From Liolophura sinensis (taxonomy: Eukaryota; Mollusca; Polyplacophora; Chitonida; Chitonidae): a DNA stretch of 64,000 nt. Below the pieces are notes generated by a model that saw only the letters and a program-made list of their open reading frames with translations, did no database searches and was not told where the DNA came from. Position numbers and translations under genes: made by a program. This document shows positions 1,244-41,981 of this stretch, one piece after another. The stretch is taken from contig NC_088295.1 of the NCBI RefSeq assembly GCF_032854445.1, positions 42,707,385-42,771,384 of the forward strand. The letters are read 5' to 3'. How positions within the stretch are numbered: the stretch's first letter is position 1; the number at the start of each line of letters is the position of its first letter.

Positions 1244-4200
1244 GCATGGATTTGGAGATAGCAGACGGCCTCTGCTAGATTCTGCCATGTTGGTGGAGGA
1301 ATTGGTTCATCAGCAAATGACAACAATTGTAAGTATGTACTAATTTGCCTTGAAAATGCTCCCAAAATCATCTAAAAGTACATTTTTAGGGGGCAAAGAA
1401 AGGTCATTAATATTTCTTTTGGTCCTGAGACTTTTATTTTTCCGGTATGATATCTTCCTAACAGGCCTAAAACACCTTTCTAGGATCAATAGATATGTCA
1501 GAATTGGGCAAAATGAGTACTTTAGCTTTGTCCTGGACAAGGTTTTAGGTGATTTATGGTAAATACATCCATTTTTCAGGGCCACTTCAAAGAGTTTTTT
1601 TTGTGCAATTTGATTAAGTTCCTGTCAGAAAAACTTAAGGCTTGTATGTACTTCTGAAAGAGCATTTTTACAGGTTAAACTCTAGGTGCAAGACAGTAAA
1701 TGAAACTTCACAACCCCACCATACAACTGCTGTGGCTAAAACCTGGCTCGCAGATTACAAATGTGTAACTTGGCCAGCATAAGCTTATTGTCTGATTTTA
1801 GCTGTGATTTATTGGCCAGACTAGTGTGATGTATATTGCTTTATTTTTTATTGAAATGGGACTTTTCACACCAATTTTGTCCTGAAATAATCTGCATATG
1901 GGCGCACAAATGCATATTTCTGCTTACATCCAACTTTATGTTTTACTAAATCAATACAAGACAGGTTAAAGGTTCTTTATTGACAAGCCAGTAACCAGCC
2001 ACTGGCTTGTTCCTAAGTTTGCTTGTTGTGCATCTGTGGAAAGATTCAGATTTTTTGTAGTTTAGCGTTGAGAATTTTCCACTTTTACAATAGACTGAGC
2101 AAAACAGAGTTACAGGAGTAAAGCACAGACCTGTAGCAAGTTATACAAGCAACCTTTGTCACATGTGATTTGTGATGTGAACTTCATGTAATACTACACA
2201 AGAGGAATGCCAACTGTTTATTGCCACCAAAGGCCCCAAGAACAGTGAAAGCAGAGCAATGCCAAGGAAATTCCACAGAATATACATAGAGAATGAAACA
2301 TTAAGTGCAATAGGGGTCAAGAAATACATCATAGACAATATAGCTTTTCAGCTGACTGCCTGAATTTAAGTAGAAAGGGTTCAAGGACACCAAATTTATT
2401 CAAAGGTCAGAGGAATTTTGTTATGAAATCTTTGCGGTCAAGTTTGTATGAAGAAATGTGCCAAGGATGCATGATTTGAAATCATGTTTTGAACATTGTG
2501 TAACCTTGACTGTAAAGATTCCATTCTAGTCCTTGTTCGTATAAGGCTTCTAGCCTACCTTGGAGAAAGAGATGAATACAGTGAACTATGGCTTCTGTGT
2601 GAATGAAGGAATAAATAAACGCAAGAACGATTAGAGTTTAAGGCTGCTTTGTGCAAAAGGTGGAAAAAACAGACATACCGACATTTGTATGTTGTAATAA
2701 CATGTTATTACTGTCTCCTATTTTGGTCATATAGGTACTACTTTTAAGGCGTCTCACAAGGCTGTCTATTTCTATTTTTGTAATGTACAGGTACATGGCC
2801 GGTCTGTCCAATTATGAAACTTCCATCTTGTTGTGATAAATGTGGTGTTAGGCGAACTGACATTTTGTATTTTAGGGAAAGGGGGCGGGACGTGGAGGGG
2901 TTAAACATATTGATATTATCAATTGCTGTTATGACAGCAGTATTGCCTTGTGACTTTAAGCCATTATAAGTTACTCATTATTATCAAATATCAGGAAGAG
3001 CAATTCTGTATGTTCTTTATTAACTGCCATGTCTGTCGGATTTATTGATTATGTCACCCTATCAGTTATTTGTAGGTTGACATTTTTTTTACTACACTTT
3101 TTCGCCTAAATTTTTTTTCCTGTGACACATTTTACTTGGTTCTGATTGATATTAATCTCATAGGGCTTAACTTTAAGATATTTTTAAGGGATGTTAACTT
3201 AATTTCTTATAAGAAAAACATATGTGTTGGCATAAAAAAAAAACATCTTAATTCCTTTATGTGCTTCTGAAAGTGCATTTTTACCAGCCAAACTTTAGTT
3301 GAAATACAGTGATTAAGTAGGTTTTGTAAAACACCCCCAGGCAGAAAAACTCCTGGTAAGAACGCCCCAGGAAGATTTTGTATAGAATTTCTGAATTTTA
3401 GTTGATGGAAATGCAGTGTAATTGTTATCTGACCACTGAGGTACATGTACATGGATAGTCCCTTTTCAACATTTACCTACATGTATTAATGATACTAATG
3501 TATAATGGTAACTTTGTCGGATCTGGGACTATTTTATAGTTTACATATATATAATACTCCCATGTCAGACATTCATGTGGAATCACAAACTTAGTACGTG
3601 TGGTATTGTAAGAATCTTAAATGGGACTTGTCTGATCCGATTTTTGCAAAGTTATTCCCCTTTGAAACGATAGCTTGGGCCAACTGTTTTGTTCTATATT
3701 TACATTATGAAGAACATGTCCTTGTTAAATAATCCAAGCTAGAGCAGTGTAGTATGTTCAATCCTGCCTTTGCACTGACAGTTTGTGGGCAAATGGTTAA
3801 TGTAGTACTCCTGTGTTATTAGAGTGGTCAGTCCAGCTTGGACCTGAGCCACCATTGGGCAGAGAATGATATCCCTATAACCTTTTTGCTGGTTTGCTGA
3901 CCAAACCAGTGTGGCTGGCAAAGTTTCAATAGGCTGAATCCAAATCCAACCAAAAATGTATATTATATCTGTTTTCCAGGCCCAGCAAGCTGCTGGTGTG
4001 GCCATGAGTAGGAATGCAAGATTCATCGGCATTGAAGACTTTCTCTTTTTGCTGCGGAAGGATAAGGTTAGTCATAGTGATTGCCCAGGGGCTAACTCCA
4101 CAGAGCCCTTTTTGACTTGAACTCAATATTTTTAACTACAAGTGAAAGCATAGTTTATGGAACATTAACTTCAAGCTATGGCAAATTTGTCTCATGATAA

Positions 4201-7200
4201 TACTTGTTAGGTGATCCCCATTTTCATTCCAAATTTTCAAAAAAAAAAAGGCAAAACTGGCTTTGTGGAATTGGACCCTGATCATAATGAAATGCATACA
4301 TAATTGTCTTCTTAACACCCCAATTTTTTGGGCATTATGTTGCTTAAAGCAATACTTCAGCACATTCCACTTACAGTACACAATGGGTGGAGGAGATGGG
4401 ACTGCCAGCATGAACAATTTGCTGATGAACTCTCCCTTGTATGATATACAAACTTGCAGTCTTCATTGAATATAAATCTGCAGTGTGCAAAAGTCCCACA
4501 TGCTGTTTTTGTTTGCTTTGATCAGAATTGATATTTGTTTGATCTTGCTAAAGCGTAAGATTCATGAAGTTGTGAGTCTGATGTTTGGATTCCTGCTAGA
4601 GTTACTCCCCTTGTATTTGCTGATTTCCACTTGAGCAACCCTACCTCTTCAAAACTTGAAGCACGCCTAGACTTTTTTCCAGAATTTAAGGATTTATTTC
4701 GCAAAACTTTTTTCAACAGAATGCTTTGAATATTTCAGACGGACCTTTATGATATTAACCACATGGATTATTTATTTATTTAATTTAATTTGATTGGTGT
4801 TTTATGTCGTACTCAAGAATATTTCACTTATACAATGGCAGCCAGCATTATGATGGGAGGAAACCAGGCAGAGCGCAGGGGAAACCCATGACCATCCACA
4901 GGTTGCTGGCAGACCCCACAAAGATTAAGTCAGCTGCATTGCAAACCTGGTTTAGTATGGTGTATTCTGTATGATGAAGAATCATGTAATACTAGTTATG
5001 ATCTTCTACACTCTTGAATGTGTTGTTGCTGTATTTATTGTTCAGGTGAAGCTGCGACGCTTGTTGCGCTATATGATGCTGAAGGATAAGACAGCTACAT
5101 TAAAGTCATCACAAGATGAAGAGGAAGGGAATGAAACAGGTAATATTCTGATACAAATATTGATTGGTTGATTGATTGATAAATGACATAAGCTGCAAGA
5201 ACTTTTCACTGACATGCCTGTCAGTTTTATGAGTGGAGCAAGCCAGAGTGTCCAGAGTAAACTGTCGATGTTTAGCAGATGGAAATACATATATAAACAG
5301 GATCGGTAAAATGTATATTCGAACTTGAAGGCCACTGTTACTAAGCCCTTTCTTTTTTTTTATTGAGAGTTCTTAGGCACAATTAGCTGTATATTTACCA
5401 AGTATGACACACAATGATATTTGATTTTGTTTTATTGCTTGCTGCTCAGAATTTATGGGAAAATGCAGTGAATGATTAGGCTGATGTCACCATACTTTGA
5501 CGATATGTGGTGTCATGTCTGGTGTCAAAAATACAATCCTGCAGTTAGCACTAGAAATCTAACTGTGTTGAGACCACCCTGATACAAGAAGGCAGTTATA
5601 TCTCACCAAACTAGTCTTAAAAGAAAAGTTAATCTTAAAGCTAACAAACAAACAGTGGCATACAAAAATGACATTTTACCCACATTCTGAAGTTTGGAAT
5701 GACTCATCCAAATACTTGGTGTCCTACATTTTATTTATACAAATTAAGTTTTGCAGTTTTTTGCATCTTGCTGAGTTCAGTACATTCATGATTTTATTTT
5801 TTTTTTTTAATAAATATTTTTTCTTTGCAGGAGAAAAGTTATCTCAGCCATTAAAGAAGAGAACTAAGATGTGCCAGGACTTTCTGTCTAACATTGACCA
5901 GACTGGTAAGCTGTTTACATTTCAAAGAAAAGAAGACCAAAACTATTGAAAATTAGCATTGTTTCCATAATGGAGAGAAAAGTGGTATTAGAGTGCAAAG
6001 TGAGGTGCAGTTGATCCAAAGCAGGCATAAGTTGTATGTGTAAATTTGATTTCACTCACAGGATTTGGTTTATAACAAATTTTTGCTAAAGTACTGAAGC
6101 CAGTTTGTTATCAAGTATCAGCTTGTGGTTTGTTTGTTTTTGTTTCTTGAGAAGAAAAGACCTTAATCTAACTTAGTGTGTTAAAGTGAGAAGATTTTTG
6201 ATGTACACATAATTATGTCCTATTTTGTTCACATGCCTGTTTGATCCCTTGCACTTAATTGCAATTTTGTTTTTGTGGAGACATTTTACCACGACCCTGT
6301 TATTACATGTACATTATAAGTGTATTTATACATACCAAACTTTAGAACAGTAATGGTCACATTAAATTGATACGGTGTTTTAAGGTGCTACATGTCATTA
6401 ATATTTGTATTGCATTACCAACTGTTGTCTGTCATCGCTTTTTTTGGCTGTTTTCTACAGGTGAACTGGTTGCACTATTTGAGGACGATGGTTTGGATGA
6501 AGTCAAACATGACCGCCTTCTTGTGAGTTTATAGAACTCAAGTTTTGGATATAAAACTACATTAGCTGGATTAAAAGCAGCTTTACAAACCGTGTAATTT
6601 TTGTCAGTTTTGTCAGGTATTTGGCATGGTGGTATGGTTTTCTACAGGCTGTGCCTAGGTCCCTTTACCCAGAAACCTAACCATTGAGTACAGTGTAACA
6701 GATTATTTATTTATTTACTTGATTGGTGTGTTACGCTGCATTCAAGAATATTTCACTTATACCAGGGCAGCCAGCATTATGGTGGGAGGAAAGCAGGCAG
6801 AGCCTGGGGGACAGTGTAACGATTAAAAAAATAACTTTGATCCAGTAAATCTGTTTACATGCATGTACATGTAAAAACCAATGATGGCATATTGCTATGC
6901 AAATAGAGAGGAGATGGCAAGTTTGAAAAAAAATATTTGCCACACATTATTTTATGAATGATTTTTTTTAATTTAATGCTCATGTATGTACATCCTTTCA
7001 TTTGCCATACTCATTTTCTTATGCCATACTGAAGAATATTTCAATTGTGCAATTGTTAGGCAAAATTACTGACCAGTTTTCCTACTTGTGATGTACAGAC
7101 GTGCCCACCATACACCAGATGAACATTAAATTGTGCAGGTGGCATGTCTAGGGTTGCTAATTGCTTATTGTCACTTAGGCCCCCTTGAAGAATGAGAGTG

Positions 7201-10200
7201 CAGTTTTCCACTGCAAGGGCCTCACCTAGTGTGATATTCTTAAATAGCAGTGCCTTATAGTCAGATATACATGTACATGGCCTTCATATTTTTGTGAAAT
7301 GTTAAGCAATTTCAACACTCTAGATGCTCTGTGTTACAATCAAAAGAATTGCTTCTTTTATTCTATTGTATCTAAAGTTGTCATTTGTACATGAACAGAT
7401 GGGGCTAAAAGGTGAGTCAATAGCTTAGTTGTACACAGGTCCTGCATGAGTTCTCTCCCTTTCCCCTTACAGAGAGCAGAGTTGCTGACACGTTCTATGA
7501 CCCCAACCCAGTACCTGGAATTCTGTGAAGCCAGACAAGTTACTTTTTGTAAGTAGACTTTGCAGAAAAAATATTTATGTTATTTATTGGAAATACAAAA
7601 TACTGTAATAACTAAAAAACATGTGCTACCATGAAGCTCTCCTTTAATATGAAAATACTTTGTTAGAAAAGATTTACCTTTATTTAAGACTTTAATCACC
7701 TAGAATTTCATGGGGTTTTTCACCGACAAATGACCCTACTGAACTAAGATGTCAAAAAGTCATGTGAAATTTTATGTCACATACGATAAATAATGTGTAA
7801 CATTACAGCATTTTCCACTAGTTAATCTTCCTCCAGTACTATTGTTCCTACTGCAGGGTGATTAGTTGATGGAAACTTCCATGAAATTATATATGAATTC
7901 CTGTGTACCTGTTACTTTCAGATATTGTAGTAGAATATTCTTCTGTCTCAAATCTTGGTAAGTTATTTTATTGGTTTGCGATGATTCCTTCATTAATTGT
8001 AGGTAGAAAATTCAAGTCTCACCGTTTCAAAGAGTGGCTGTTGACAGGGCTACACTTAGAAGTCAAACCTAATGCTTTAGCGCTGGAGGTTCTCAGCTAC
8101 CTAGCTTATGAAACTGTTGCCCAGGTAAGTTAGGTTCTCCGTTATCTGGCTTATGAAACTGTCACCCAGGTGAGTTAGGATCTCAGCTATCTGGCTTATG
8201 AAACTGTCGCCCAGGTGAGTTAGGTTCTCCGCTATCTGCCTTATGAAACTGTGTCCCAGGTGAGTTAGGTTCTCCACTATCTGGCTTATGAAACTGTCAC
8301 CCAGGTGAGTTAGGTTCTCAGCTACCTGACTTATGAAACTGTGTCCCAGGTGAGTTAGGTTCTCTGTTATCTGGCTTATGAAACTGTGTCCCAGGTGAGT
8401 TAGGCTCTCCACTATCTGTCTTATGAAACTGTCGCCCAGGTGAGTTAGGTTCTCAGCTACCTGACTTATGAAACTGTAGCCCAGGTGAGTTAGGTTCTCT
8501 GTTATCTGGCTTATGAAACTGTCGCCCAGGTGATTTTGGATCTCAGCTACCTCTGTATGAAACTTATTTGGTGTAAAACTTAGGCACATATTTGATGGTA
8601 AAATCATTGAAAGTTTTTAGACAAATGGTTCTGTATTTTAGGTTGATACATGTATGTTTGTGTTAGAACAAAGTCTGTATCCTTTGTTGTACACCAGCAT
8701 ACTCCTTACAGCGCATGCCTCACTTCAATGCCACCTCTACAAAATTTTGTATGGAAATTAACTGGAAATTTTTGTATTAACACTGAGTTCAGTGGGATTT
8801 CTGTGATAAGGCTGGAAATGGTTTCAGAAACTCTGTGTCAACCTTTGTTTCTAAAAAATACTTTATACGCATGCATTTTTTTTTAAATTTAAAGTATTCA
8901 CAGCATAATTCTAACCAACAATTCTTAAACAATATTTAGCTCGCCTGAATGAAGAAAAGCGAGGTATTGTGAAAGGAGGGGAAAGTGTTGGTGTTGGTGT
9001 TGGTGTCAGGCTGAGTTTTTATTTTTTAACTCCTGTATAATGGGCTCTCATTTAAGGATTGAAGGTTAAGCTTTTTCTTTTAGCTCCTGTACATGTATAA
9101 TGGGCTCTCATTCATGGATTGAAGGTTAAGCTTTAGCTCTCTAGTATGATGTGTAAATGCACATTGTCGGATGGCAGGTTAAGCTCTGTTTTTCAGCTCT
9201 TGTATATTGGACTATCACACATGGATTGAAGGTTAGGCTTTTGTTTTTTGCTCTCTAGTTTAAGGTATGATGTGTAAATGCACTTTCTCAGATGGGAGGT
9301 TAAGCTTTTTTTTTTTAGCTCCTGTATAATGGCAGTCATGAGTGGATCTCCAACATACAGTGATTTAAAGTGTTTCATTTGTGTGTTTTTTTGTTTTGTT
9401 TTTTCGTCTGTGTACATCTACAAAGGGCCTAATGATGGAAGGTTGAACTGTTTTAGTGGTTTTAGTTTTATAGCCTTTGTAAATGTTCTTAATGATTTTA
9501 ATTGGTAGACTTTTCAATTCAAAAATTTTCAGTTATCTAGTCTGCCAGCAACCTGCGGATGGTAGTGGGTTTCCCCCAGGCTCTGCCCGGTTTCCACCCA
9601 CCATAATAGTGGCTGCCGTCATATAAATGAAATATTCTTGAGTACGGCGTAAAACGCCAATCAAATAAATAACCAGTTATATAAACTTAATTTGGTTTCT
9701 GTAGTAAACACATTCTCTCGAAATTAAGCCTTCATGAAGGGCACCAATTTCTTGTATACAGGGTTTCTGTGACTTTATTGCGTATGAGATTTATACCCAC
9801 ATGCCTCCCTACATTTAGGAGAACAAGAAGGGTAAAGGGTTCCTCTGGGGATTTTAGGATTTTCCTGTTTTGTGGACACACATTAAGATTGTCTTCATTC
9901 TGTTCTCCTGTAAACACAGATTTCTTCAAACCTTTCTTGTAGGATAACAGTTTCTTAAGCAATCACTTATTGGGATAAGCCTTTTGTCTCTCTAGCTACT
10001 TTTCCAGATTTGCGATTTTCCAGAGTCTAAGAATTTACCTTGGTGTATAACAATTTATTTTATATACATAGTATCTGTAGAAAGCTCTCCACATCTGTAT
10101 TAGTACTAGGAGCCTATGTCACTGGTTGATGCAGGTGCCTTCCTATAGTGTGACGGATTGTTCAAACCATCCCAGCAGACTGGTGTTGGCTGATTTTTTT

Positions 10201-13200
10201 TGTTCAGTCAATCAGAGGGCTGCAGTGGCCACCCCTTAGTACACGGGTAGCCAATCATGGGAAGCATTTGCATTTCAAAGACCACTACAGGGAGTTTGTA
10301 CTCAAACACTCCACAATGAAGTTTTTTTCAATACTATAGCTCAACATTTGCTCAGCCATTCACAGCATTGGAATTGTTTACGGATTGTCACATGGAATTC
10401 ATAAGTTGCATATCAAAGACCACGGCCTCAGTTTTGTGCACAAAATATCCACACTGACGTCTTTGCCATCACAACACTAGTGGGGGCAGTGATGCGAAGT
10501 GAGCATCACATAGAGAGCAGCACATGCACTGAATGGAATGTGGTATACCTGAATGTGGTAATACACTCGGTATATTAAAAAGGTAACCTGTTGTCATCAG
10601 CAGGGAACAAAACATGAAAGGGGTGTTATGCTCCACTGAAAGGAGCGTTATGCTCCACTGACAGGAGTGCTATGCTCCACTTACAGGAGTGCTATGCCCC
10701 ACTGACAGGAGTGTTAAGCTCAACTGAAAGGAGTGTTATTCTATGCTCCACTGACAGGAGTGTTATGCCCCACTGACAGGATTGTTATTCTATGGTCCAC
10801 TTACAGGAGTGCTATGCCCTACTGACAGGAGTGTTGTGCTCCACTGAAAGGAGTGTTATTCTATGCTCCACTGACAGAAGTGTTAAGCTCCCACTGAAAG
10901 GAGTGCTATGCTCCACTGACAGGAGTGTTAAGCTCCACTGGCAGGAGTGTTTAAGCTCCACTGACAGGAGTGCTATGCTCCACTTACAGGAGTGCTATGC
11001 CCCACTGACAGGAGTGTTGTGCTCCACTGAAAGGAGTATTATTCTGTGCTCCACTTACAGAAGTCTATGCCCCACTGACAGGAGTATTAAGCTCCACTGA
11101 AAGGAGTATTATTCTATGCCCCACTGACAGGAGTGTTATGCCCCACTGACAGGAAAAGAAAAATGATTTTGTGGCATGCATGAGGATTTCTAATAAAGGT
11201 GTTGACTTTTACTGTATTTGAGAGGATGAGAGTATACCAGAACAGTGTGTGTGTGTGTGTGGGGGGGGGGGGGGGATAATCAATATGTGTGCTTGTATAT
11301 TCCAAACATGTGGTTAGAAGCCAGAAAATTTTAGCCAGAAAAAACTTATGTTTTTGTCCTTTTCTCTTTGATTCTTTGTTGTTCAGATAGTGGACCTGTC
11401 TTTGCTGGTGAAGCAGGATCAGAGTAAATGTGTGGAAGAACCTGTGTCTGCCAGCCTACCCACCATCTGTATGAACTACCAAGATACTGTCCAATTTCCT
11501 GCTGGTAGTGTAAGTACATATAGCAGGGTTGAATTCATCTACTTCTGGGTTTACCATTTTATTCTATTAAATACAAGTGGTATAAAGCTGCATTCAAGAC
11601 ATAACAAAGACTTCAAGTTTGAAACAAATAATCAAGAAGAAAAGTCTGATGGATACTTTTCACGAAATGTCCTTACTATCGTGTGGAGCGTACAGAAATA
11701 TTACTGCAGGTTCATTCTTGCACGTTGTGGCCAAGTAGTTAAAGGTAGTTGCCTCTTAATCGCTAGACAAGGAGAGGCACAGGGGTCAGCCCTGGCCTTG
11801 AATAGGGAATTAGCCCCATGCTTTGTAATGGCTATTTACACAGTATAACATTCATTGAAGAATCATCTTCTGCCAACATGGTGTGCAAATCTGTACTTCA
11901 CTGGTAGAAACATTTATCTGCAGTACCAAAGGGCATTCTGGTCTGCCCAGACCACAAAAACTCATCACCACTTTGAGGGGAGGAAGTGAAGTGAGAAATA
12001 CTTCAGTAGGGTGCTAGGAAACAAATGACAAAAACAAATAGATAAGTACTGAGGCTCATTCGTATAGAGAGTTAAGAAACCTCATTTGGGTATTGGACCA
12101 TGCTAATGCATAATGTATTTGAATACATGAATCATATTCGTGTTTGTATCTGTTTGTGTCCCAGAGTCCTCCCTCCACCCCAACCCAGTCATCAGTGAAT
12201 AGTGGCGGGTCAAACCCTGCCAGTCACCAGTCCTCACAGAGCAGTCACAGCTCAACCAATGCTCCTCACTCCAGCAGCAAGAACCATCCAAGAAGAGAAA
12301 AAGGTAGGTGGCAGGTCTTTCAAAGTTGCTTAAGTTTCCATTGTTGTTTTTCGTTTTTCATTTGTGCTTTATTCGGAGTTACTAACCAGGGTGTATTAAT
12401 GAACCTATTTTGAAATGAATGATTGTCAAAGGGACAGAAATACGGAACTCGTATTATTAAACGCTCCATGCCGCCTGTCAAAATTAGGTCCAAAGCTACG
12501 AGCTCTTGTTCTTTCCTGTATTACGTCACTGTTATCAGTGTATGTGTACTCTTAAAACACCTAGCTAGTACTCAAGCACTGCAGTGTCACGACCAAAGCA
12601 ATGTGTTCTGCTGTGATTTGGACCCTTTGGGTTATCTTGCCCTTGCGTCTCCCATTGCATATTAATCATTAATAAACCCACCACCAACATGACACAGACT
12701 ACATTTGTGTGTTAACTTTAACATAGGATTCTAAACTGTGCCTCTTACTTTATGGTCAAGCCTCAGCCCATCAATATTAGTTTTTTTCTCTTTTTGATGT
12801 GACCGTACAACTTGTAATGTCACAGGTTCTATAGGCCTAGGCTACAGGCTGTGGTGAAAGTTGCATTTCATGACAAATGAACAATTGCAAGAAGCCCATT
12901 TCAAGCAACGGCAGTATATATGCATTTTGCTTGATTTCATTTTCATTTGATAATGATTTTTTTTTGTATCAGTGCCCAAGTAAGTGGTGAGTTTGTCAGG
13001 CAAGGTAGCCTGGCAACCAGGTTAAGCGCATAATGTCCTAGATTACAAGACCACCGGGAGCCTCTGTGGTTAGCGTGGCAGTACAGCATAATGACCTGGA
13101 GCTTCTCAATTTGTACCTTTCATGTCCTGACCGTCCTGTTACAGAGTGGAGTATCCACTGTGCTGGAATGGTCAGCCTCCAATACAATTCTGCCTAGTGA

Positions 13201-16398: not shown

Positions 16399-17062
16399 TG
16401 TCTAGTGTACTATTTAAGGTGGAAAGATGGCAAGGTGCAAAGGTTTCTTCAGGAATGCTCGGTATCCTCTGCCCATAATACTAGCAAGACTTTAGCCAAT
16501 TTAGCCATGCAAGAACAGTATAAACAATTATATTCAGCTTTCTGTATTTCTTCAAACATCTCTGATCCGTTCATTGTTTTTATGAAGGTTATATTGAGGA
16601 AATGACAGAGCCTACTGTAAATCTTCAACCTTTTCAACCATTAAGGCACTGTTTCAGTAGAATTTATTATATACATTTATTATAAAAATGATGCAAATAA
16701 AAACTGTGCAAATTATTTCTCTACACCCCATAGTCTCCAAATATTTAAGTTGCTTGCAGAGGCAGATTAGAAGGTTGAAGACTTAGGGTAGGTAGAAAAC
16801 ATATTTCTCTGAAAAACTGAAACTGCACTTTGATTGGCTGGTTTCCAGGTAAAAGGGATACCTACATTTTTGATTTGAGAATTAACTGAAACAAGTGACT
16901 TGAAAGGATTGTTGATTGATTTGTGTTTCATGCTGTGCTCATGAATTTTTCTTTTATATGATGGCATGGAGGTTTTTGTGGGTGGCGGGGAAACTGGAGT
17001 GCCTGTAAAGAAATGTGTGGGGATATTTATGCTTCAGTATACATAACTTAAAATTCAGATAA

Positions 17063-17362
17063 AGGTTTTTTAGATAGACTGTATGTATTCAGATGTAGTT
17101 TTTTAGATAGACTGTATGTATTCAGATGTAGTTTTTTAGATATACTGTATGTATTCAGAAGTAGTTTTTTAGATAGACTGTATATATTCAGAAGTAGTTT
17201 TTTAGATAGACTGTATGTATTCAGATGTAGTTTTTTTAGATATACTGTATGTATTCAGATGTACTTTTTTAGATAGACTGTATGTATTCAGATGTAAATG
17301 TTTAGATAGACTGTATGTATTCGGTGTAGTTTTTTAGATAGACTGTATGCATTCAGATGTAA
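17063..17362 (+). repeat. 33-bp minisatellite, nine copies
   Basis: The unit is built of GTTTTTTAGATAGACTGTAT plus GTATTCAGATGTA, repeated nine times with small changes. It stops about 35 bp from the probable 3' end of the minus-strand CAP-Gly transcript. Confidence 0.95.
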
Positions 17363-32215: not shown

Positions 32216-32595
32216 GCCTGTATGTTCTGAATGTAATGCTATGTAATTGTTTTTATGGTGACCAGGTCTAGCTCACCTGATGGTCACTGTTACACGAGGA
32301 TTAACCTAATTGTGCAGTCATGTTGGAAATACAAAATGTCATGGTTCTGAGAGGCCCTACAGCCATTTCAAAATTGGATGTTCGCATGCGTGTTTGGGAA
32401 CAGTGTGGAGACATTTACTGCCTGTCCCGAGAATAGTCAGTTTTTGTGATAGGTGTCCTTCTAATCTTTCTACACGATATATCAACATATATAAATAATA
32501 TAGCCCTTGTGGCGCAAAATTGTATTTCTTCCAGCTTCAATAATCCCATCGGATTTATATGCATGGTATATATAAGCTGCTTATGTTCTTCGTTC

Positions 32596-32946
32596 TAGTG
32601 TTTTTCGGTGTTGTGTTCTCCTTTCCAGTGTTGTCCCTTCTAGTGTTATCTGTCAAGTGTTGTCCGTTCCAGTGTTGTCCGGTTCAGGGTGGTCCGGTTC
32701 AGTGTTATCCGTTCTAATGTCATCATTTCCAGTGTTGTCGGGCTCAATGTTGTCCGTTCCAGTGTTATCCTTTCCAGTGTTATCTGTCCCAGTGTCCTAG
32801 TGTCCGTTCTATGCCGTGTTGTCCTTTCCATGCCCATGTTGCCCATTACATACAGCGTTTTCCGTTCCATGTAGGGTTGTCTGTTCCTTGCAGTGTTGTC
32901 CGATCCAGTGTTGTCCGTTCCAGTGTTGTCCGGTTCACTGTGGTCT
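32596..32946 (+). repeat. 15-bp minisatellite (CCAGTGTTGTCCGTT)
   Basis: About 22 imperfect copies of CCAGTGTTGTCCGTT. The length keeps frame, so the minus strand shows a long run of LERTT/LDRTT repeats. I regard that frame as a by-product and not a gene. Confidence 0.9.
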
Positions 32947-39900: not shown

Positions 39901-40235
39901 CCAAGATTAGCCAGTCGTTCGTTACACTCTCTGCTCTGATGAGCCGGATCAATTTCATGTAGTGTTTGTTTTCCCGGTGATACGGTATTCATACGACCCT
40001 CTCTCTCACAGCAAGACTTCACTGGGACGGCTTAAGACGGCTGTGTGGCAGTGTAAGTGATCTCCTTGACAGAGGCGGTTCTCCCGCCGGGCGCAGTTCA
40101 GCTGAAGAAGCCGTGAGCGAAGGTACGAAGGCAAAGAAGGACCTGCCGATGGTGTGACAGGCAGAAGTTGTCAGGTCCCGTTTACTGCAAACAACACTTC
40201 ATCTCTCCAGACTTGTCAGCAGGACTTGAGAGAAG
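39901..40235 (+). promoter_or_regulatory. Probable promoter and 5' leader of Frizzled
   Basis: GC content rises from about 39.5 kb towards the ATG, with CCCGCCGGGCGCAG at about 40083. No TATA box is convincing. Stops in all frames before 40236 fit an untranslated leader. The start site is not defined. Confidence 0.4.
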
Positions 40236-41981
40236 ATGTGGCGTTGGGTAGTTCTGGTGTCTCTGTCCTGTGTGGGGTACTTCCCTTGTGGCCAGGGTTT
40301 AGCCAGGCACGGTCAGCACAGCCGCTGTGAGAGGATCACCATACCTATGTGCTTAGACATGAGATATAACATGACACTGATGCCTAACTTCATTGGCCAC
40401 ACCAACCAGAAGGATGCGGCCATCCAGGTTCACGAGTTCATACCTCTAGTACAGTTCGGCTGTTCGCGATTATTAAAGTTTTTCCTGTGTTCGCTTTACG
40501 CTCCCATGTGTACGGAGCAAGTTGACGAGACTTTAGTCATTCCGGCCTGCAGATCCATGTGCTTAGAGGTCAAATCGAAGTGTGAACCCGTTTTAGAAAA
40601 ACTTAATTTTAAGTGGCCTTCAATTTTGGATTGTTCTAATCTTCCTGAGAGAAGTGAACGAGGTAATTTGTGCATGGAAGCACCTAACGTAACCGGAGAG
40701 TCGGACCACGACAAAGCTGCTCATGGCAATAGGCCTGGCAACGAAGACATTTGGAAGCTGCTGGAGTCCCTCCGGGGTAAGACAACCACTGCCCCCGGGG
40801 GAGAGGATGGGGCGACCTCGACGGACTACCGATGTCCCGATCGCTTCGTGCATGTCAACAAAAAGAACACATCTGCCTCATGCGCCCCGCGATGTAATAT
40901 GGAAGTTTACTTTCGCCAAGAAGACAAACGATTCGCGGAGATTTGGATGGTTGTGTGGGGGTCCCTGTGTTTCTTTTCCACTATGATCACTGTGCTGACG
41001 TTCGCCGTGGATTCCTCCCGTTTCAAATACCCGGAACGTCCCATCATATTCCTGTCCTTGTGCTACGCCGTTTATTCTGTGGCTTATATCATCCGGGCGT
41101 GCACGGGGGCGAACGCCATCTCCTGCGACAAGGGCATCGCAGGTGTGGAATTTCTTATACAAGAAGGTTTAGAGAACACCTGGTGCATTATAATCTTTCT
41201 GATTTTGTATTTCTTCGGTATGGCCAGTTCTCTATGGTGGGTTATTTTGACTGTCACGTGGTATTTGGCAGCAGGTAGAAAGTGGGGACAAGAAGCTATC
41301 GAAGCCCTCAGCAGTTATTTCCATTTCGCCGCATGGGCAATACCCGCAGTGAAGACCATTGTGATCTTAACGATGCGGAGGGTGGACGGGGACGAATTGA
41401 CGGGGTTGTGTTATGTGGGCAACCAAGACATTAATGCCCTTACTTACTTTGTGCTGGCCCCCCTCTTGACTTATCTGCTAGTCGGTACAGCTTTTATTCT
41501 GGCAGGTTTTATTGCCTTGCTACGAATAAGGAACAATTTACGGAGTCGTGACGGCACCAATATCAGAAAATTAGAAAAACTGATGGCCAAAATTGGCGTG
41601 TTTTCGGTGCTGTACACGGTTCCCGCTACCTGTGTAATTGGCTGCTACTTCTATGAGCGTATCAATTTTGAGAATTGGCGCTCTATTGCCATGAGAAGCG
41701 AGTGTGACTTGTCTAAAGACACTAAGAAGGAGTGTACATTGAGTCAGTCCGTGCCCACGGTGGAGGTCTATATGCTCAAAGTGTTCATGTCTTTAGTCGT
41801 GGGCATCACCAGCGGAATGTGGATATGGAGTTATAAAACAGTCAGCTCCTGGCGAAACTTTTGCTTCAGGCGGTTAAGCCGTCGAAAATCCGCCCTGGGC
41901 AACTATCAGCAGGCTCCCGTGGTAGTCATGAAACCGGGCAGCCAGAAGTGCGTGTCTAAAGCTGCCACATCTCGCTTGTGA
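40236..41981 (+). CDS. Fzd9/10: Frizzled Wnt receptor, FZD9/10 group, intronless
   Basis: This is a seven-helix plasma-membrane receptor for Wnt ligands that signals through Dishevelled. The 581-residue frame has a signal peptide (about 1-20), a cysteine-rich domain with all ten cysteines (31, 39, 76, 85, 92, 105, 109, 116, 133, 146), a linker, and seven membrane segments (about 234 to 531). The KTxxxW Dishevelled-binding motif is KTVSSW at 534-539. N-glycosylation sites are at N45, N151 and N211. Blocks such as FFLCSLYAPMCTEQV and WGQEAIEALSSYFHFAAWAI place it with FZD9/10 rather than FZD4, 5/8 or 1/2/7. The C-terminal SRL could be a class I PDZ ligand, as in FZD10. The gene is intact and has no introns, as usual for this receptor group. 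The first in-frame ATG is taken as start because the signal peptide follows directly. Confidence 0.97.
   Translation: MWRWVVLVSLSCVGYFPCGQGLARHGQHSRCERITIPMCLDMRYNMTLMPNFIGHTNQKDAAIQVHEFIPLVQFGCSRLLKFFLCSLYAPMCTEQVDETLVIPACRSMCLEVKSKCEPVLEKLNFKWPSILDCSNLPERSERGNLCMEAPNVTGESDHDKAAHGNRPGNEDIWKLLESLRGKTTTAPGGEDGATSTDYRCPDRFVHVNKKNTSASCAPRCNMEVYFRQEDKRFAEIWMVVWGSLCFFSTMITVLTFAVDSSRFKYPERPIIFLSLCYAVYSVAYIIRACTGANAISCDKGIAGVEFLIQEGLENTWCIIIFLILYFFGMASSLWWVILTVTWYLAAGRKWGQEAIEALSSYFHFAAWAIPAVKTIVILTMRRVDGDELTGLCYVGNQDINALTYFVLAPLLTYLLVGTAFILAGFIALLRIRNNLRSRDGTNIRKLEKLMAKIGVFSVLYTVPATCVIGCYFYERINFENWRSIAMRSECDLSKDTKKECTLSQSVPTVEVYMLKVFMSLVVGITSGMWIWSYKTVSSWRNFCFRRLSRRKSALGNYQQAPVVVMKPGSQKCVSKAATSRL

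Follow-up and report, generated by a model that had tools for sequence, protein, structure and literature searches.

The SPT3 exon end and its tandem array

The window analyzed here, a stretch of 64,000 nucleotides from the chiton Liolophura sinensis located at 42.7 Mb on contig C1, contains exons of the gene SPT3 (SUPT3H) and, at the end of one of them, a minisatellite in which the exon end and its 5' splice site (donor) have been multiplied. Nine SPT3 exons were placed, guided by the human sequence; the last of them reaches 13258 and terminates in a donor, which shows that the gene extends beyond it. The joined upstream exons match the Pfam family TFIID-18kDa (E = 8.5e-20). The exon peptide joined across the intron that carries the array matches human SPT3 (7ktr_I, chain residues 178-250, E = 1.2e-14) and none of Pfam's families. 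We take the helix interrupted at this intron to be part of the second histone fold of SPT3.

Tandem Repeats Finder (TRF) delineated a single array with a period of 45 bp, 10.6 copies, 86% match and 0% indels (Table 1). Copy 1 is made up of 37 nt of exon end (8088-8124) and the adjoining GTAAGTTA; complete units begin at 8088 + 45k, ten in all, and a partial eleventh follows them. CAGGT recurs in 45-bp steps at 8122, 8167, ... 8527, where the donor reads CAGGTAAGT once (8122), CAGGTGAGT eight times (8167-8482) and CAGGTGATT once (8527), damage being confined to the terminal copy (copy 10, GTGATT) and the G at donor position +1 (G+1) being retained in all ten copies. The motif CAGGTRAGT occurs nine times in the window, every time within the array, a count that none of 100 shuffles reached. 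A search of the 609-Mb genome with the array region matched its own locus alone.

Predicted duplex energies with the 5' end of U1 are -12.1 kcal/mol for CAGGTAAGT, -12.2 for CAGGTGAGT and -8.2 for CAGGTGATT, and range from -5.5 to -8.2 kcal/mol in the eight other placed SPT3 donors. The array thus presents nine equal, strong donors, 45 nt apart and all bindable by U1, that exceed the eight other donors placed in the gene by about 4 kcal/mol. Use of any donor after the first includes a stop, read in the exon frame as GTA AGT TAG and followed by two or more exon junctions; consequently, transcripts that use a later donor are expected to be targeted by nonsense-mediated decay.

These results bear out much of a preliminary description of this DNA, which had named the gene as SUPT3H, counted about ten copies at exact 45-bp spacing, set eight downstream CAG/GTGAGT copies against an authentic GTAAGT, seen several competing donors facing U1, noted the TAG at 8131 that any later donor would bring in, and placed the next exon at 11387. 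The contrast it drew between near-ideal copies and GTAAGT does not extend to strength, as by duplex energy the authentic site is no weaker than its copies. Its junction coordinate of 8125 does border the intron but requires a correction, as the last exon base is 8124 and 8125 is already intronic.

Table 1. Features of the SPT3 array and its surroundings (positions in the window), followed by the arrays that start at exon ends with a protein matched by the search tools
Feature	Position	Strand	Basis or remark
SPT3 coding exon ("exon 7"), 122 nt, ends ...YLAYETVAQ	8003..8124	+	protein match
Minisatellite, 45 bp, 10 full units and part of another; exon end lies within copy 1	8087..8564	+	TRF, unit alignment
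Predicted RNA hairpin around the authentic donor, 14 pairs	8099..8135	+	folding model
Authentic donor CAG/GTAAGT, intron from 8125	8122..8130	+	9-nt U1 pairing, -12.1 kcal/mol
In-frame TAG, included with any later donor	8131..8133	+	
Extra donor CAG/GTGAGT, copy 2	8167..8175	+	
Extra donor CAG/GTGAGT, copy 3	8212..8220	+	
Extra donor CAG/GTGAGT, copy 4	8257..8265	+	
Extra donor CAG/GTGAGT, copy 5	8302..8310	+	
Extra donor CAG/GTGAGT, copy 6	8347..8355	+	
Extra donor CAG/GTGAGT, copy 7	8392..8400	+	
Extra donor CAG/GTGAGT, copy 8	8437..8445	+	
Extra donor CAG/GTGAGT, copy 9	8482..8490	+	
Degenerate donor CAG/GTGATT, copy 10	8527..8535	+	U1 duplex -8.2 kcal/mol
Next SPT3 exon, IVDLSLLVKQD...	11387..11509	+	protein match
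SPT3 array	exon end		7ktr_I, E 1.2e-14
L036 array	exon end		Mot1-like helicase, PDB "helicase-like protein", E 1.6e-17
L041 array	exon end		alpha-L-fucosidase, PDB E 1e-10; Pfam match below cut-off
L042 array	exon end		iron-hydrogenase-like
L046 array	exon end		LACTB, PDB E 1.7e-8; Pfam below cut-off
L047 array	exon end		animal haem peroxidase
L048 array	exon end		Tex-like
L049 array	exon end		ABCC3, weak, E 0.0026

Variation among the copies and predicted folding

Across copies 2-9, which differ pairwise at 2 to 7 positions, 8 of the 45 columns are variable and none of these belongs to the nine donor columns. This protection of the donor 9-mer is not significant (P = 0.14): 12 of the 45 circular 9-column windows, the donor window included, are free of variation, which is likewise absent from 13 consecutive columns outside the donor, CTTATGAAACTGT. 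The variable columns are spread evenly over the three codon positions (3, 2 and 3, with 12 columns each), which indicates that the copies are not maintained as coding sequence. Copy 1 differs from all of copies 2-9 at three sites, namely the third bases of a Leu codon (CTA/CTG) and a Val codon (GTT), and donor position +3. Similarity is highest between copies three units apart (P = 0.005 uncorrected, 0.075 when corrected for the choice of lag), a pattern that block duplication would produce, and this suggestive 3-unit periodicity makes it plausible that copy number may vary between individuals.

The hairpin predicted around the authentic donor has a minimum free energy of -13.1 kcal/mol (z = -2.56); about 7 of 500 shuffles and 1 of 250 random GT sites were as stable, the authentic donor being one of nine donors tested in this way. 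A similar hairpin is predicted in seven of the ten copies, with copies 4, 8 and 10 folding less well, and its pairs are kept in 95% of cells across the ten copies, among which we found no pairs with changes on both sides. Stable hairpins were also predicted in 6 of 10 copies when the donor was folded with the start of the next copy (z from -2.8 to -4.4). Folding of the whole array as RNA was not unusual (z = 0.31, with 62 of 100 shuffles at least as good), nor was DNA folding in two two-unit stretches. Predicted accessibility is low at all ten donors, so copy 1 is not singled out. RNA structure was rejected as a functional feature, given that the whole array behaves like its shuffles and shows no two-sided pair changes.

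On the minus strand, 8101-8616 holds an open frame of 171 aa that scores 48.4 bits against Pfam Bromo_TP (cut-off 24.6). We take this match to be a repeat artefact, because the length of the repeated unit is a multiple of three.

Donor arrays elsewhere in the genome

Pairs of CAGGTRAGT spaced 20-50 nt apart number 1451 in the 609-Mb genome, compared with 329 for the reversed pattern, and at 32-37 nt the counts are 305 and 46; these figures refer to pairs rather than arrays, and the reversed pattern is their sole control. We examined 22 arrays, comprising that of SPT3, 11 regions of C1 (0.5-5.5 Mb) and 10 regions on C1, C2 and C3. The 21 others are a non-random sample, drawn from the head of position-sorted lists and, in the second batch, omitting places with only one pair. 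We located exon ends by visual inspection of open frames and splice signals and then searched with the peptides. Eight of the 22 arrays, one of them with a weak match, start at the exon end of a tool-matched protein (Table 1), so that several genes of one genome are affected. In L042, a 40-bp exon-end unit at 2544-6319 is present in 94 copies, with 68 intact CAGGTGAGT donors.

We take the L036 helicase to be BTAF1 and the iron-hydrogenase-like gene of L042 to be CIAO3; the L050 frame, for which the tool search gave no match, resembles in our judgement deoxyribose-phosphate aldolase. Open frames run into the arrays of L035 and L038, where peptide searches returned no match, and an exon-like end lies near, not at, the arrays of L040 and L051. 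At L032, L033, L034, L037, L039, L043, L044 and L052, visual inspection in the donor orientation revealed no clear exon end, and the L045 array begins outside the stretch examined. In L046 (769-1568) the first 32-bp unit is apparently exonic, with the LACTB match passing through it, and CAG/GTGAGT donors arise at the unit joins, an arrangement similar to that in the model of intron gain by AGGT duplication. The frame before the array in L035 (2989 onward) may end at CAG/GCGAGT, a candidate for an authentic GC donor beside GTAAGT copies. The 11 C1 regions (L032-L042, 77 kb, chosen for donor arrays) contain many more minisatellites, most of them without a donor motif.

The arrays differ in how well the donor is preserved. 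With counts restricted to copies whose alignment covers 70% or more of the unit, and with arrays of at least 20 counted copies considered large, G+1 was lost in the first batch in 2/54 copies of L032, 2/21 of L035, 14/38 of L036, 10/21 of L038, 20/46 of L039, 15/61 of L041 and 25/94 of L042, and in the second batch in 3/64 of L043, 0/25 of L045, 8/25 of L046, 8/25 of L047, 1/30 of L048, 4/44 of L049 and 9/26 of L050. The L038 counts are rough, this array being poorly conserved (69% match), and one of the eight L046 losses is a gap. Loss of G+1 reached at least 24.5% of copies in 8 of the 14 large arrays (L036, L038, L039, L041, L042, L046, L047 and L050), five of them at tool-matched exon ends (L036, L041, L042, L046 and L047); L048 and L049 are exon-end arrays with little loss. 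The T at donor position +2 (T+2) reached this level in none of the 14, the highest value being 0.24 in L038. In 11 arrays G+1 varied more than T+2, in two (L035 and L043) less and in one (L045) equally, for a two-sided P of about 0.02 in a sign test calculated by hand. In the first batch, where the pattern was found post hoc, Fisher's test gave P = 0.0059 for the seven large arrays and 0.10 for all 12; replication in the second batch was weak (P = 0.16 for its seven large arrays, 0.45 for all 10). The replacing base varies by array (T in L036; A in L039, L041 and L050; mostly C in L042), and G-1 is also variable in some arrays.

Selection against donors should also affect T+2; with T+2 spared and G-1 variable in some arrays, a mutational cause or chance spread by turnover is as likely as selection. 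We consider doubtful a general scheme in which donor arrays are widespread and born at exon ends, would first multiply fully active donors and would later, with increasing length, lose G+1 in many copies, silencing the decoys, with the SPT3 array as a young member. If it were true, these arrays would form a graded natural set for the choice of the first among up to about 70 equal donors.

Interpretation of the SPT3 array

Mirages are minisatellite-like, length-unstable repeats across exon-intron boundaries, described in amphioxus Adh3 and globins (PMC3087553), in troponin C and, as similar repeats, in PGBD5 (PMC3902484). The SPT3 array shares with those of Adh3, the globins BflGb6 and BflGb9, troponin C and PGBD5 an authentic copy at the gene edge and many extra copies with AG/GT signals, which in the amphioxus accounts many, not all, copies carry (PMC3087553, PMC3902484). 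Its unit crosses the exon-intron boundary, and its extra copies are intronic with splice signals. The amphioxus repeats are described as undergoing concerted turnover that leaves out the copies at the cluster boundary (PMC3087553, PMC3902484); possible signs of it in the SPT3 array are the lag-3 similarity (P = 0.075 after correction) and the damaged donor of copy 10. The SPT3 array lies in a different gene and is described here from the DNA of one assembly. A search for the GFP family, which is typical of lancelets, gave no hit in this genome, but neither did it give one in any control genome. The SPT3 array is an addition to an already known class.

Three further systems are comparable. In human IFI6 (6-16; Turri 1995) minisatellite units likewise offer splice donors, but in that gene two downstream units reportedly serve as donors and yield different isoforms (PMC4526556), whereas in SPT3 later donors would lead to a stop. 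The intron-gain model of Rogers also invokes duplicated AG/GT segments (PMC4974935), although it concerns the gain of an intron and the SPT3 array lengthens an existing one. Genes in human segmental duplications carry boundary minisatellites that may alter splicing (PMC2812944); those repeats are described as varying between recent paralogues, while the SPT3 array region matches its own locus alone.

We favor, with a probability of roughly 0.75, reading the SPT3 array as a passive exon-boundary minisatellite of the mirage type, possibly subject to low-level misuse. A 45-bp stretch, 37 nt of exon end and 8 nt of intron, would have undergone tandem duplication, and its additional copies, which all lie in the intron, would be turned over by unequal exchange or slippage, with copy 1 held by coding and splicing constraint and copies 2-10 drifting. 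U1 could bind each of the nine intact donors, and the first would most likely be the one chiefly used, because it is the one at which transcription first completes the 122-nt exon. If a later donor were occasionally used, the transcript would bear the TAG at 8131 and presumably be removed by nonsense-mediated decay; a selected function would be unnecessary.

Several observations weigh against this reading. Between two comparable donors the intron-proximal one is reported to be favored, by a mechanism described as not understood (PMC6002489), which predicts use of the last copies rather than the first. In human IFI6, two downstream minisatellite units are reported as used donors (PMC4526556, citing Turri 1995). 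Changes among copies 2-9 are clumped, with 8 columns accounting for at least 14 changes (P = 0.0015), in contrast with two control minisatellites of the window in which clumping is absent (P = 0.93 and 0.99). Two of the variable places have CpG-like alternatives (CG/CA/TG), and CpG decay may explain part, not all, of the clumping.

The equal U1 pairing of the nine donors, together with the IFI6 precedent and reports that tandem repeats at human exon-intron boundaries can alter splicing (PMC2812944), would also suit a leaky, unselected decoy, in which later donors are measurably used and the share of SPT3 transcripts lost to the TAG depends on array length. We consider this unlikely: amphioxus mirages are said, on the data presented, to leave regular splicing undisturbed (PMC3087553, PMC3902484), and the exon-end arrays of L036, L041 and L042 carry 20, 35 and 68 intact CAGGTRAGT donors, which suggests that arrays of this type are tolerated. 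The preliminary description had gone further and proposed a decoy or length-variable splicing switch for SPT3. What stands of that interpretation is the multiplied exon end and donor, the nine equal donors and the TAG; the proposed function is not supported. That eight extra donors are letter-perfect in an array with 8 of 45 variable columns speaks for selection, but protection of the 9-mer falls short of significance, CTTATGAAACTGT varies no more than the donor does, and comparable arrays occur at exon ends of unrelated genes. A selected decoy or switch is without support beyond the presence of strong donors, and we hold it to be very improbable.

Other readings of the unit fare worse. Each has an AG directly 5' of its GT, so that CCCAG/GTGAGT could serve as acceptor and donor in a recursive-splicing ladder, the intron being removed in 45-nt multiples without a trace in the mRNA and each removal regenerating the donor. 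Such a ladder seems scarcely credible, as the pyrimidine fraction before these AGs (0.53-0.59, against 0.65-0.94 in the six SPT3 acceptors scored) is too poor for a strong acceptor and a 45-nt intron would be very short. In principle, the 36-nt segments with a terminal CAG, ten variants of VLSYLAYETVAQ, could be alternative coding mini-exons, none having a stop in the exon frame as judged by eye. We discarded this reading as having next to no probability: codon positions vary alike, without the third-position excess of coding sequence; only 9 nt separate the segments; and the TTAG that precedes each would make a poor acceptor (pyrimidine fraction 0.47-0.53). Because assembly of tandem arrays is difficult and only assembly sequence was examined here, an artefact is conceivable; the differences among copies 2-9 speak against false multiplication of a single unit and make this explanation highly improbable.

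The interest of the SPT3 array, most probably a passive minisatellite, lies in the class of arrays rather than in the single case. The set amounts to natural minigenes, in which one exon faces nine to tens of equally strong donors, and could help decide whether transcription order, exon definition or proximity sets donor choice. It also calls for caution in gene finding, as donor arrays can yield false exon ends.

Of the other features of the window, a second, unrelated minisatellite (22 bp x 23.4) lies at 10615-11154 in the SPT3 intron that carries the array. Others are present at 17053-17361 (unit of 33 bp) and at 32584-32932 (15-19 bp). A Frizzled receptor is encoded by a single open frame at 40233-41978 (+), with Pfam matches to Frizzled (E = 1.5e-129) and Fz (E = 6.2e-32).
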